A stretch of DNA of 64,000 bases from Weissella diestrammenae (GTDB lineage: Bacteria > Bacillota > Bacilli > Lactobacillales > Lactobacillaceae), in assembly GCF_014397255.1 (NCBI RefSeq), contig NZ_CP060724.1:1-64000 (forward strand), in the 5' to 3' direction. Of the stretch, positions 24,936 through 64,000 are shown piece after piece; within the stretch, counting starts at the first letter, position 1; each line of letters starts with the position of its first letter. A model generated the notes under the pieces. It searched no databases. It was not told the origin of the DNA and saw only the letters and a list, made by a program, of their open reading frames with translations. Position numbers and translations under genes: made by a program.

Positions 24936-26413
24936 TCTGTTACCTTCTTTACTAGATCAATCCATTGTTTTGTTACATTCTTCTCTAAATATTTATCTGC
25001 AATTTTGTATGACATACGACGTGATCGAACCAATTGATTTGCACTATAATTATCTAATTCAACAATCATGTTCGTTAAATTCACAATATTTTTAGTTGCA
25101 TTATTTCTGGTAAATGGAACAGTGATACCATTATTTTTAATAAAATTCGTATTACCATAATTAACATCAAAGCCACCAAAAACAAGTCCAGATCCAATAG
25201 CCTCCATCAATGTTAGTCCAAAACCTTCACTCGTGGATGCCGTAAGATAATATGAATAATTTGTGTATAAATCACTTAAATCATGATGACCACACAATTT
25301 AATATATTCATCAGCCTCAGCATCTTTAATTAATTTCTCTAATTGTTTCTTTTCACCACCAGCTCCATAAATATCTAATTTGATTTCTGCATTTGTTTCA
25401 TGCGCTTTAATAAAAGCTTCCACCAACCAATTTAAATTCTTCTCAGGTGCTAATCTTGATGCCGTTACAAAAGTGTGCGGTTCACGATTCGTATTTTTTT
25501 TCAATTTATCAATTGAACCAACTGGAATGTCAAAAATTTTAACGGTCTTATTATTTTGATATTTATCAAAATGTTTCGACAATAAATTTTTCTGCGTTTC
25601 TGTAGCCGTAACAAAAAAATCAATATATTCTGCATTTGTAAACGGATAATCATAATGATTATTCCACAAAATGTAATCATCATCGGTTGAATTCTCATTA
25701 AAATGTTCGGCATGAATAATAATTCCCACCTTAGCATTACCATTATTGCCTTTTAATATACTTGACCCTGCCCCTAGCGAACGATCAATCAGGATAATGT
25801 CTTTTCGCTTTAATCGAAGTTGTTGAATAAAAAACATCATAAATTCATCTTTTGATAAGAAAATATTTTTATCAATTTGAAAAATATTTTCTTTGTCATC
25901 AATTCGTTCAACTAATGCAACACTACCATCTTGATTTAAAATTTCGCGACGAGCAACGGTTCCATTACTGTTAAAATATTGGATTGCATTTCGTGCAGTA
26001 GTGAAGTGTTCACGTCGGATAAGTGCACCGTTACTATACACATCAGCATAGTCAACCGTCGCTGTTGCCTTCTGATTATTATGCAATATAACTTTTATAT
26101 TATCTATGTCATTTACTAAATTCGACTCGTCTTTTGCTGTGAAGCTACCGAAATATTCTTTTTGTACTTTCTCGAAACTTAGTTTCGGTTCGCTAAATTT
26201 AATGTTTGAAAAATAATAATATACAGAAACAATTTCGTCTGTCATAAAGCCCATATTTTGCGACATACTGATTAAATTATTCAAGGTGAACTCTGAAAAA
26301 ATAAATTTACTATCATAATCCGTTTTTCTTAATGACTGCGCACGATATAATTGTGCATATTCAACACCACTGCTGGCCCATCCCATACCTTTATTAATAT
26401 TATATATTTTCAT
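24932..26413 (-). CDS. gtfA: Accessory Sec glycosyltransferase GtfA
   Basis: The start MKIYNINKGMGWASSGVEYAQ at 26413 is the GtfA N-terminus and follows GGAGACG; the longer frame is discarded. The 493-residue enzyme is a GT4-type GT-B transferase that adds GlcNAc to serines of the adhesin repeats in the cytoplasm. It shows the beta-meander insertion (DVYSNGALIRREHF; GSVALVERID), the RLAPEKNLNWLVEAF donor-site region near residue 340, and the ASTSEGFGLTLMEAIGSG motif near residue 410 with the conserved E-x7-E pattern. It overlaps the upstream gtf3 gene by 14 bp and gtfB by 4 bp. Confidence 0.95.
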   Translation of the reverse strand: MKIYNINKGMGWASSGVEYAQLYRAQSLRKTDYDSKFIFSEFTLNNLISMSQNMGFMTDEIVSVYYYFSNIKFSEPKLSFEKVQKEYFGSFTAKDESNLVNDIDNIKVILHNNQKATATVDYADVYSNGALIRREHFTTARNAIQYFNSNGTVARREILNQDGSVALVERIDDKENIFQIDKNIFLSKDEFMMFFIQQLRLKRKDIILIDRSLGAGSSILKGNNGNAKVGIIIHAEHFNENSTDDDYILWNNHYDYPFTNAEYIDFFVTATETQKNLLSKHFDKYQNNKTVKIFDIPVGSIDKLKKNTNREPHTFVTASRLAPEKNLNWLVEAFIKAHETNAEIKLDIYGAGGEKKQLEKLIKDAEADEYIKLCGHHDLSDLYTNYSYYLTASTSEGFGLTLMEAIGSGLVFGGFDVNYGNTNFIKNNGITVPFTRNNATKNIVNLTNMIVELDNYSANQLVRSRRMSYKIADKYLEKNVTKQWIDLVKKVTE

Positions 26414-60611: not shown

Positions 60612-60634
60612 ACAAAAAAAAGACATGCCATGTC
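60612..60634 (-). terminator. Short terminator after the flp operon
   Basis: GACAT/ATGTC (60634-60622) forms a short hairpin followed by eight T on the minus strand, about 95 bp past the flp stop and ahead of polA. Confidence 0.55.
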
Positions 60635-60728: not shown

Positions 60729-61400
60729 TTAATTGATGCGCTTTAATGCACTACTATCAATAATTTCAATCATCTGTCGGCCCTCTAAACGAATAAGACC
60801 TTGATTGCTAAATTCCTTTAACGTTCGACTAATTGACTCTGGTGTCGTATTCAAAAAGGATGCTAAATCTTTTTTCAATAATGGCAAACGAAAGCAATCT
60901 GTTCCCTTTTGCATTTGCATTTCATATAGGTAATTTGCCACGCGTTCACGCACACTGCTTAGCATTTGCACTCGCTGCTTTTCAAGCACTAACAAACGCT
61001 GTCCCAATTGATTAATGACATTAAGCATTAACTGATTATCACTCATTAATAATCTGTGAAAATCATGTTTACTAATTTGGCAAATCTGACTGTCCAAATT
61101 CGCAATTGCATTATTCGAATAACGACCATCGGTGAATAACACCGTTTCACCTTCAAAATCACCTGGTTGCATCATTCTGATTAGTTGTTCATGCCCATCT
61201 GGTGTAGTTTGACTAATTTTTACCTCACCAGAGGCTAAAATTGTCAGCTTTTCTCCTGACCACCCTTCGTGATTAATATAATCACCAGCTGTCAGTCGTG
61301 ACTCATGGACTAAAGTTGCAATTTTTTGTTGGTTTTCATTGGTTAATCCTTTAAAAATTGGCACCATCCCTACACAGTGAATTGCATCATGTTTTGCCAT
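60729..61400 (-). CDS. flp: FNR-like transcription regulator Flp
   Basis: The 223-residue Crp/Fnr protein has an N-terminal cyclic-nucleotide-binding-like beta roll (about residues 15-120), a long dimer helix (LLVLEKQRVQML) and a C-terminal winged helix (160-215). The recognition helix TTPESISRTLKEF has E188, S191 and R192, the E..SR contacts of FNR that read TTGAT half-sites. It lacks the FNR iron-sulfur cysteine cluster; instead Cys9 and Cys107 match the positions of the redox disulfide in lactobacillus FLP proteins. It is the last gene of the HMA-Dps-flp unit, whose promoter has a perfect FNR box, so self-regulation is likely. Confidence 0.9.
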   Translation of the reverse strand: MAKHDAIHCVGMVPIFKGLTNENQQKIATLVHESRLTAGDYINHEGWSGEKLTILASGEVKISQTTPDGHEQLIRMMQPGDFEGETVLFTDGRYSNNAIANLDSQICQISKHDFHRLLMSDNQLMLNVINQLGQRLLVLEKQRVQMLSSVRERVANYLYEMQMQKGTDCFRLPLLKKDLASFLNTTPESISRTLKEFSNQGLIRLEGRQMIEIIDSSALKRIN

Positions 61401-61409
61401 TTCAAGCCC

Positions 61410-61949
61410 CTATTCATCATCCGTTTTCATATCTTGCCATGCAGCTTGTCGTAAAAAAGCTTCTAAATATCGGATTGCGTCATTATTGTACCCCAACATT
61501 TGTGTCAGCACTAGCCCCAGCATCGGTCGATCCTCTCGCTGTGCTAATTTAATTGCGCGTGTCATGAATAAATTAGCAATGTTTAAGTCATTTACGGTTG
61601 CAGTAACCATTTCTGTCGCCGTCATATATTTTAAACGACCATCCTCGTTAATTTGCGCATATTCAGTGATTTCAGCAATCGTACTTGGAACAATCTCTCG
61701 TTCACTCAATAACAACTCACCCAATTGATCAATTTGTTCTCGATTGTGGCTAATCATTTTTTGATAACGCGCTGATAGCGCTGGCATATCTGTGCCCTCT
61801 AAATACCACTTTATTTGATGATATTTAACATCAAGATACCATAAATTCGCCATAATATGGCTACTCATTGCACCTGCAGTTGGTTGATGATGACTTTTTT
61901 CTGTCAATTCTAATTCATGTTGATATTTTTCTTCAATGCTATCATTCAT
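61410..61949 (-). CDS. Dps-like ferritin-fold protein
   Basis: The 179-residue all-helical protein has the Dps-type four-helix pattern, with SSHIMANLWYLDVKYHQIKWYLEG (residues about 29-52, holding the inter-subunit ferroxidase-type histidines) and a C-terminal helix ending RQAAWQDM. Dps proteins oxidise and store iron and protect DNA from peroxide. Homology is inferred by fold pattern, and the exact ferroxidase residues are not all confirmed. It overlaps the HMA gene by 4 bp and is followed 9 bp later by flp, so metal handling and the redox regulator are one transcript. Confidence 0.72.
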   Translation of the reverse strand: MNDSIEEKYQHELELTEKSHHQPTAGAMSSHIMANLWYLDVKYHQIKWYLEGTDMPALSARYQKMISHNREQIDQLGELLLSEREIVPSTIAEITEYAQINEDGRLKYMTATEMVTATVNDLNIANLFMTRAIKLAQREDRPMLGLVLTQMLGYNNDAIRYLEAFLRQAAWQDMKTDDE

Positions 61950-62182
61950 TTAACCAACTCCTTTATTTTTACTGATTTAACCGTATATCCCAGAGCAGTC
62001 ATACGATCTACAATTTGGGTAATTGTAATGATGTCTGGCAGGTACCCAACCTTAATTCGACTGGCATTAAATAATACTTGAACTTGACTGACACCATCTA
62101 ATTTAGAAAGTGCCCGTTCAATTTTTATCAAGCATGATGGACAACTTAATTCCTCCAGTTGTAACGTTGCACTATTTTTCAT
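61946..62182 (-). CDS. HMA-domain metallochaperone (CopZ-like)
   Basis: The 78-residue protein is a single heavy-metal-associated domain with the metal motif SCPSC at residues 14-18 (CxxC) and the following beta-alpha-beta pattern. It would carry copper, zinc or cadmium-type ions in the cytoplasm. GAGGTTTTGAA precedes the ATG. It is the first gene after the FNR-type promoter and lies 68 bp downstream of the P1B ATPase, an obvious partner. Confidence 0.88.
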   Translation of the reverse strand: MKNSATLQLEELSCPSCLIKIERALSKLDGVSQVQVLFNASRIKVGYLPDIITITQIVDRMTALGYTVKSVKIKELVK

Positions 62183-62207: not shown

Positions 62208-62249
62208 ATTGTACCTTTGTCATTGCGATTTGTACTTGATTTAAATCAA
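62208..62249 (-). promoter_or_regulatory. FNR-type class II promoter of the HMA-Dps-flp operon
   Basis: A perfect TTGAT-TTAA-ATCAA site (62249-62236) lies upstream of a -10 TACAAT (62213-62208). Counting back from the -10 puts the site centre at -41.5, the exact geometry at which FNR-type regulators activate class II promoters. No good -35 is present, as expected for an activator-dependent promoter. The box begins only 1 bp past the ATPase stop codon region. Confidence 0.8.
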
Positions 62250-62250
62250 G

Positions 62251-64000
62251 TCACTTCGAGTGCACCAGTCGTAAGGCATTAAAGATAACAACAAGAATAC
62301 TCAGCTCATGGACAAACATGCCAGTAGTCATTGTAATTAATTGATTAAACAAGCCGATAAATAAAAAAAGTACCACCATAATCGCGATAAAAATATTCTC
62401 ATACATATTTTTTGTCGTTTGTTTAGCTATTAAATATGCATCGTTTAAATGTTTGAGATTAGCATTAGGTAAAATAATATCAGCAGTTTCAATTGCCACA
62501 TCGGTCCCGCTCCCCAAGGCGATGCCAACAAATGCATTTGCAATAGCCGGCCCATCATTAATACCATCACCAATAAACGCAGTCCGCTGACCGTTCAGTT
62601 CAAGTTGCCTTAAATAGGCTACTTTATCATCAGGCAATAAGTGTGCTTGAACATCTGAAATGTCGAGTTGTTTAGCCACTAATTGTGCACTCGTCATACG
62701 GTCACCAGTTAACATTGCCACGTGTTTAATGCCAGCTTGTCGTAACTCCTTAATGACATTTTTAGCTTCTGGACGCACATCATCTTCGACACCAAAAACC
62801 GCAGTCAATCGGTTTGAAATTGCCACATAGACCAGTGACACAGATTGGCTTTGCATTTTTAAAATTTGATGCCTAATAGCACCTGTCATTTTGACCTGAT
62901 TTTTCGTCATTAGTGCTTGATTACCAATTAAGATTGTATCTTTTCCTATTTCTGCCTGCACACCTAACCCAGATTGAATTGCCAAATGATTGACATCTAA
63001 CATTGATTCTGACGAGGATTGCTGATCAAGATATCGAACCAAGGCTTTCGCAATTGGGTGACCAACCTGCATCTCTATACTTTTAATCATGGTATTAATC
63101 ATCACATGTGATTCATTAGCAACGGTGTAAACGCTATCTGTCACATTCATATTGCCGGTTGTCAATGTGCCCGTTTTATCAAAAACAACCGCCTCAGTCG
63201 ATGGTAATTTTGTCATAATATCACCACCTTTAATCACAATGCCCTGTCGTGCTGCACGTCCAATACCAACAACATTCGACACTGGTGCACCAACGACTAA
63301 AGCCCCTGGACACCCCAACACAAGCACGGTAATCGCAAGCCGAATATTATGTGTGGCAATAAATGTTACCACCGCAATCAGCAAGACAATTGGTGTGTAA
63401 CGTGCTGCAAATCGATTAATAAACCGTTCAGCTGGCGACTTTGTATCTTGAGCCGTTTCGATCAATGCTACAATTTTAGCAAATTGTGTATCATCACCGA
63501 TCTGCGTTACCTGAATTGTCAATGCACCGTCAACCAACATTGTGCCTGAATAAACACCATCTGCTTGGATTTTTTCAACTGGTTGCGCTTCACCAGTCAA
63601 ACTAGATTCGTCAACTGACCCCGTACCAGCAATAATTTCCCCATCAACTGCGATAACTTCACCGGCCTTTGTTTTGACTTGATCACCAACATCCACTTGC
63701 GCCACCGGTACATCTTGCCAAGCTTGATTGGGCATTAATTTATGCACAAATTTTGGCGTCAAATCAGTCAATGCCTTAATCGAAGCGCGTGCACGGTGAA
63801 TGGCTCGCTGTTCCAATAAATTACCCAAAGCAAATAAAAATGTCACAATTGCGGCTTCTGAAAACTCACCAATGGCAAAGGCCCCGACCACTGCAATGCT
63901 AACTAGCAACTCAATACTAATTATATGAAAGCGTATGGATTGTAAGGCTTGAAAAATTATTGGCAATCCAGTTAGCAATGTCGCCACGACGAATCCTAAC
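62251..64000 (-). CDS. P1B-type heavy-metal ATPase (N-terminus beyond the window)
   Basis: The frame is open to the right edge, so the first residues are outside. It has the P-type motifs SLTGEAQPVEK, the membrane-site motif GCPGALVVG (CPG instead of the usual CPC/CPx), DKTGTLTTG (phosphorylated aspartate), an HP motif in EMQVGHPIAKAL and GDGINDGPAIANA. It pumps a heavy-metal cation. The CPG site and the lack of a Cys-His-rich C-terminus leave the metal open (zinc, cadmium, manganese or copper); family members in lactobacilli are linked with Cd/Zn/Mn. It lies immediately upstream of the HMA chaperone gene. Confidence 0.9.
   Translation of the reverse strand, partial: LGFVVATLLTGLPIIFQALQSIRFHIISIELLVSIAVVGAFAIGEFSEAAIVTFLFALGNLLEQRAIHRARASIKALTDLTPKFVHKLMPNQAWQDVPVAQVDVGDQVKTKAGEVIAVDGEIIAGTGSVDESSLTGEAQPVEKIQADGVYSGTMLVDGALTIQVTQIGDDTQFAKIVALIETAQDTKSPAERFINRFAARYTPIVLLIAVVTFIATHNIRLAITVLVLGCPGALVVGAPVSNVVGIGRAARQGIVIKGGDIMTKLPSTEAVVFDKTGTLTTGNMNVTDSVYTVANESHVMINTMIKSIEMQVGHPIAKALVRYLDQQSSSESMLDVNHLAIQSGLGVQAEIGKDTILIGNQALMTKNQVKMTGAIRHQILKMQSQSVSLVYVAISNRLTAVFGVEDDVRPEAKNVIKELRQAGIKHVAMLTGDRMTSAQLVAKQLDISDVQAHLLPDDKVAYLRQLELNGQRTAFIGDGINDGPAIANAFVGIALGSGTDVAIETADIILPNANLKHLNDAYLIAKQTTKNMYENIFIAIMVVLFLFIGLFNQLITMTTGMFVHELSILVVIFNALRLVHSK

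Follow-up and report, generated by a model that had tools for sequence, protein, structure and literature searches.

What does a perfect FNR box achieve in front of an operon that encodes its own FNR-like regulator, and to what would such a regulator respond? Flp proteins entered the literature in the 1990s, and their natural signal and purpose are, to our knowledge, still open. Here we discuss such an operon from Weissella diestrammenae, located near the end of the analysed window, the whole stretch of 64,000 nucleotides covering positions 1 to 64,000 of contig NZ_CP060724.1. The reading that we consider likely, with considerable confidence, is that Flp acts as a two-cysteine FNR-type activator of two promoters, those of the hma-dps-flp operon and of the adjoining P1B ATPase gene, and receives its signal through Cys9 and Cys107.

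Promoter geometry at the two transcription units

The four proteins of the locus were identified with Pfam and NCBIfam models. The features are listed below in window coordinates; those beyond the window are given as genome positions.

60614-60634, minus strand: candidate weak terminator downstream of flp, GACATGGCATGTC and then eight T, read directly
60729-61400, minus strand: flp, 223-aa Crp/Fnr regulator with Cys9, Cys107 and E188..S191-R192 (PF00027, PF13545; conservation)
61410-61949, minus strand: dps-like gene, 179 aa, relative of Lactococcus lactis DpsA/DpsB (PF00210; structures 1ZS3 and 1ZUJ; alignment)
61946-62182, minus strand: hma, 78-aa HMA metallochaperone-like protein with a CPSC site (PF00403, E 1e-10)
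62201, minus strand: predicted transcription start, 7 nt after the -10 from which it is deduced
62213-62208, minus strand: -10 hexamer TACAAT, 22 nt downstream of the box, read directly
62236-62249, minus strand: FNR/Flp box TTGATTTAAATCAA, exact match, centre 62242.5
62251-64000 (whole gene 62251-64116), minus strand: P1B ATPase with a CPG motif (TIGR01525; full ORF)
64143-64138, genome: TATCCT, -10 of the P1B promoter, 22 nt from the second box
64166-64179, genome: second box TTGATGGTTATCAA, before the P1B gene and just outside the window; site and -10 together span 64138-64179

Read along the minus strand, the first box (62249-62236) is followed by 22 nt, the TACAAT hexamer, a GAGG ribosome site and the ATG at 62182. 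It is the core of an 18-bp perfect palindrome (62234-62251) sharing one base with the stop codon of the P1B gene, which extends beyond the window end. Given the start deduced from TACAAT, the box would be centred at -41.5. The best -35 candidate of the hma promoter with a spacer of 16-18 nt, AGTACA, agrees with TTGACA at only 3/6 positions and, across relatives, TTGACA matches at the expected place are no better than in shuffled sequences. Direct reading therefore agrees with the first-pass annotation, which had described a perfect TTGAT-N4-ATCAA box at -41.5 from TACAAT without a -35; the class II FNR geometry that it had proposed gains support from the 22-nt spacing kept across relatives and from the missing -35. 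It had also named the HMA metallochaperone and the Dps-like protein correctly, as the PF00403 and PF00210 matches confirm. The module contains no Rfam element, and the hairpin after flp was not called by the terminator scan, which requires three G-C pairs.

The P1B ATPase had been mentioned as lying next to the operon. It is indeed a neighbour, but it is more than that, since a further box, spaced alike and belonging to the pump gene, had been overlooked. The predicted regulon therefore consists of the pump, the chaperone and the Dps-like protein.

Could such boxes be functionless chance palindromes? Their frequencies equal random expectation: the window holds 12 boxes with at most one mismatch vs 11.2 in shuffles, and the 1.66-Mb genome has two copies of the composite site (box, 22 nt, TAnnnT), where a Markov model of that genome predicts 1.3. 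Genome-wide counts of either pattern, not being above chance, were dropped as evidence. The features that escape chance are the location of the two sites and their conservation. The only two composite sites of the genome stand before hma-dps-flp and before the P1B gene next to it, and in Lactobacillales and other Bacilli the sites keep their position, spacing and gene context; these comparative data already refute the chance reading, whose probability we regard as negligible.

Two further sites were recorded. One with the same core at 1109577 was discarded because it sits within a coding gene, and another perfect FNR box, TTGATATTTATCAA (window 25556-25569), has no -10 at 22 nt.

Conservation of the module and the case for activation

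Homologous loci numbered about 135 in the comparison and came almost entirely from Lactobacillaceae; 80 of them have organism names, and some belong to both sets. The P1B-hma-dps arrangement is kept in the approximately 135 loci, often together with flp, although in some relatives no flp lies within 6 kb of the pump and hma genes. The comparison of the box across related genomes, which had been suggested as a check on the first-pass annotation, gave a clear outcome: a TAnnnT hexamer at exactly 22 nt from the box was seen in 97/100 unique box-bearing promoters of hma and in 92/93 of P1B, and none had it at 21 or 23 nt. A stricter composite pattern searched in 121 genomes of the family returned 0-6 sites per genome, commonly two, with a reversed control near zero. 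The same arrangement was encountered in 20 loci from other families of Lactobacillales. The closest pumps across Bacilli provided 24 further loci, 22 of them outside Lactobacillales, where flp accompanies the pump in 21/24, an HMA gene is present in 23/24 and the spaced box in 21/24.

This conservation bears on the direction of control. Flp could be a repressor of its own operon and of the pump, as the box overlaps the expected -35 position and many metal regulators repress their own genes. However, with no -35 left the unaided promoter should be weak, and a 22-nt distance held constant at two distinct promoters from family to family is typical of activation, as it would reflect a need for contact with RNA polymerase that repression does not impose. 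We therefore favour activation and consider repression unlikely. The earlier suggestion that the operon is controlled by its own FNR-like protein, which has the E..SR recognition residues, is supported too. In the proposed mechanism, TTGAY-N4-RTCAA, with its centre at -41.5, would be the palindrome bound by an Flp dimer, which would recruit RNA polymerase to promoters devoid of a -35. Two promoters would respond, one for the P1B metal pump and the other for hma-dps-flp, flp itself included. It is thus very probable that Flp activates both its own operon and the adjoining pump gene through identically spaced predicted sites, and there is good support for a putative class II loop of positive feedback.

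Several side observations concern the organization of related loci. A single palindrome (L290:4593-4606) serves divergent flp and hma-P1B promoters, with a -10 at 22 nt each way. The first transcribed bases (about +1) are biased toward an ACATCA-like sequence in hma and P1B promoters alike. A mobile module of the order dps-flp-(lgt or other)-hma-P1B is carried by plasmids L258, L259 and L294 of Leuconostoc, Carnobacterium and Listeria, where most genes have an identically spaced box of their own ahead of them, and near-identical Dps copies reside on plasmids of many genera, including Enterococcus. A FetAB-type iron exporter lies near the module in four instances (L294:4164-6084, L072:8143-9545, L073:9741-10496 and L248:1670-3107); in the few loci having FetAB genes, no box precedes them, and the exporter was rejected as a regulon member.

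The regulator and its cysteine pair

The third gene of the operon had been described as encoding a Crp/Fnr protein with the E..SR residues, and this proved correct: both PF00027 and PF13545 score above cut-off, a fold search returns Crp/Fnr proteins and E188..S191-R192 is present. An AlphaFold model of the monomer, of modest pTM (0.61) and used for the fold only, has the Crp/Fnr fold. No protein of the genome other than Flp was found to have E..SR. A first contig scan with Flp as sole query found nothing. A second Crp-like protein of 185 aa was rejected as the regulator, its recognition helix being TPVSLSR and its gene unlinked; that gene (genome 1590414-1590662, L125:1279-1836) adjoins one resembling NAD(P)H quinone reductases, a name given by inspection.

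Cys9 and Cys107 had been proposed to stand in place of the FNR cluster cysteines. This holds, and the pair turns out to be all-or-none: among 81 Flp sequences, 79 possess both cysteines, none possesses a single one and the two sequences lacking both are unlinked paralogues. Both residues are likewise present in 21/21 Flps from the 24 Bacilli loci. A third cysteine, Cys169, is found in 1/81 homologues, the window Flp alone.

An oxygen sensor with an FNR-like iron-sulfur cluster would account for the FNR-type box and recognition helix and for the alignment of Cys107 with FNR Cys122. Yet only this last cysteine is kept: the columns of the FNR N-terminal cysteines are not Cys in Flp, a single N-terminal cysteine is left, and a cluster would need sharing across the dimer or other ligands. 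We find a cluster-based sensor improbable. The pattern observed, one cysteine near the N terminus and one at the position of FNR Cys122, is that of the FLP/FlpA type.

The signal would accordingly be perceived by the cysteine pair, either as a disulfide formed under oxidative or thiol stress or through binding of a soft metal. Because all conserved targets look metal-handling, the most likely trigger is a metal, or else thiol damage by which a metal is set free or imitated. Bound metal would explain the conservation of Cys9 and Cys107 equally well as a disulfide switch. In the variant where Flp senses metal directly, a soft metal such as Zn, Cd or Cu(I) would be held by Cys9 and Cys107, possibly together with nearby His residues, and it is this binding, not a disulfide, that would turn on the pump and the chaperone. 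Every conserved target handles metal, many homologues carry His-rich N termini ahead of Cys9, and a P1B gene annotated zosA, perhaps of the CPG type, was the most cadmium-induced gene of an Enterococcus faecium strain (PMC8554106). Against this variant, no further cysteine and no His column is invariant among the homologues, and publications on FLP and FlpA reportedly present a redox switch. We hold the direct metal sensor as a tentative possibility, which we would sooner doubt than accept. For the two-cysteine activator in general, sequence and comparison establish the geometry of both promoters, its conservation, the cysteine pair and the gene set, from which we infer that Flp binds directly and activates, as well as the signal, the metal and the transport direction; the output would be a metal-handling set made of the HMA carrier, the CPG-type P1B pump and the DpsA-type protein.

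Targets, wider meaning and known systems

The pump is of the P1B type, with E1-E2 ATPase and HAD domains, a DKTGT motif and a match to the heavy-metal subfamily model. Its best solved relative over the whole chain is the ZntA-type P1B ATPase 4UMV. In contrast to the ZntA type, which has CPC in M4 together with an M8 Asp, the window-type pump has CPG and an M8 His-Glu, invariant in 44/44 homologues, and is thereby set apart from P1B-2 (ZntA/CadA). In a quick tree of 101 sequences that includes several long branches, the CPG pumps are set apart by a branch with an SH-aLRT of 96. By sequence, the window pump belongs to a separate clade; this, and the company of flp beside the pump in most of the Bacilli loci, are new here. 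A literature search on the CPG motif found nothing. Pumps annotated zosA, a name taken from a zinc transporter of Bacillus that is connected with oxidative stress, have been described on Listeria plasmids (PMC6985202, PMC7054086). One Listeria plasmid carries a CPG pump next to dps and flp, and the pump of that module is probably one annotated zosA.

The CPSC site of the HMA protein is invariant (47/47). The Dps-like protein has the ferritin-like domain (PF00210), with DpsA and DpsB as best solved relatives, and the two His of the usual inter-subunit ferroxidase site are replaced in it and in most relatives; one relative (L070) retains the pair. The invariant residues E12, H20, H31, N35, K42, K107, Y108, D121 and E139 cluster away from the usual site, and another metal site in this family is possible. 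The gene is missing from most loci outside Lactobacillales and is therefore an accessory. The earlier proposal that the operon governs metal sequestration is weak, because the Dps-like protein lacks the usual ferroxidase His pair and the most widely conserved partner is the pump.

The strict promoter conservation, the two-site regulon and the recurring unusual pump narrow the question to one metal or thiol stress, and testing is easy in a small genome that has just two sites. The same module also occurs on plasmids of food bacteria, including Listeria. As a broader conjecture, which we rate somewhat short of probable, CPG-type P1B ATPases may constitute a separate class of transporters throughout Bacilli, whose expression is linked to Flp activators with two cysteines, these sensing the metal or its thiol damage via Cys9/Cys107; the hma-P1B-flp trio would then be an ancient core, joined in Lactobacillales by the DpsA-type protein.

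Among known systems, Escherichia coli FNR shares with the window locus the box type and the class II position, and its E209..S212-R213 and Cys122 align with E188..S191-R192 and Cys107 of Flp. Unlike FNR, Flp lacks the four-cysteine set, and thus an FNR-type [4Fe-4S] site. Lactobacillus casei FLP is likewise an FNR-like regulator, called a novel regulatory switch in the title of its report, and is said to operate as a two-cysteine switch. A RegPrecise survey (PMC3616900) lists FlpA among the metal-homeostasis regulons of lactic acid bacteria. The closest likeness, with the lactococcal flp operons, had been noted in the first-pass annotation and was compared directly in three genomes assigned by inference to Streptococcaceae (the family of G316), whose loci were identified via Dps fragments only; over 76-77 residues, their Dps are up to 93.5% identical to 1ZS3 (DpsA) or 96% to 1ZUJ (DpsB). 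These loci share with the window the order P1B, box, hma, dps, flp of the L. lactis flpA/flpB operons (orfX-orfY-flp, where orfX corresponds to hma and orfY to dps, preceded by an FNR box) and carry boxes before both hma and P1B at the spacing seen in the window. The window proteins are divergent from those of the lactococcal operons and, judged on sequence and gene order, the window locus is related to these operons at some distance, in an arrangement that recurs across the class Bacilli.
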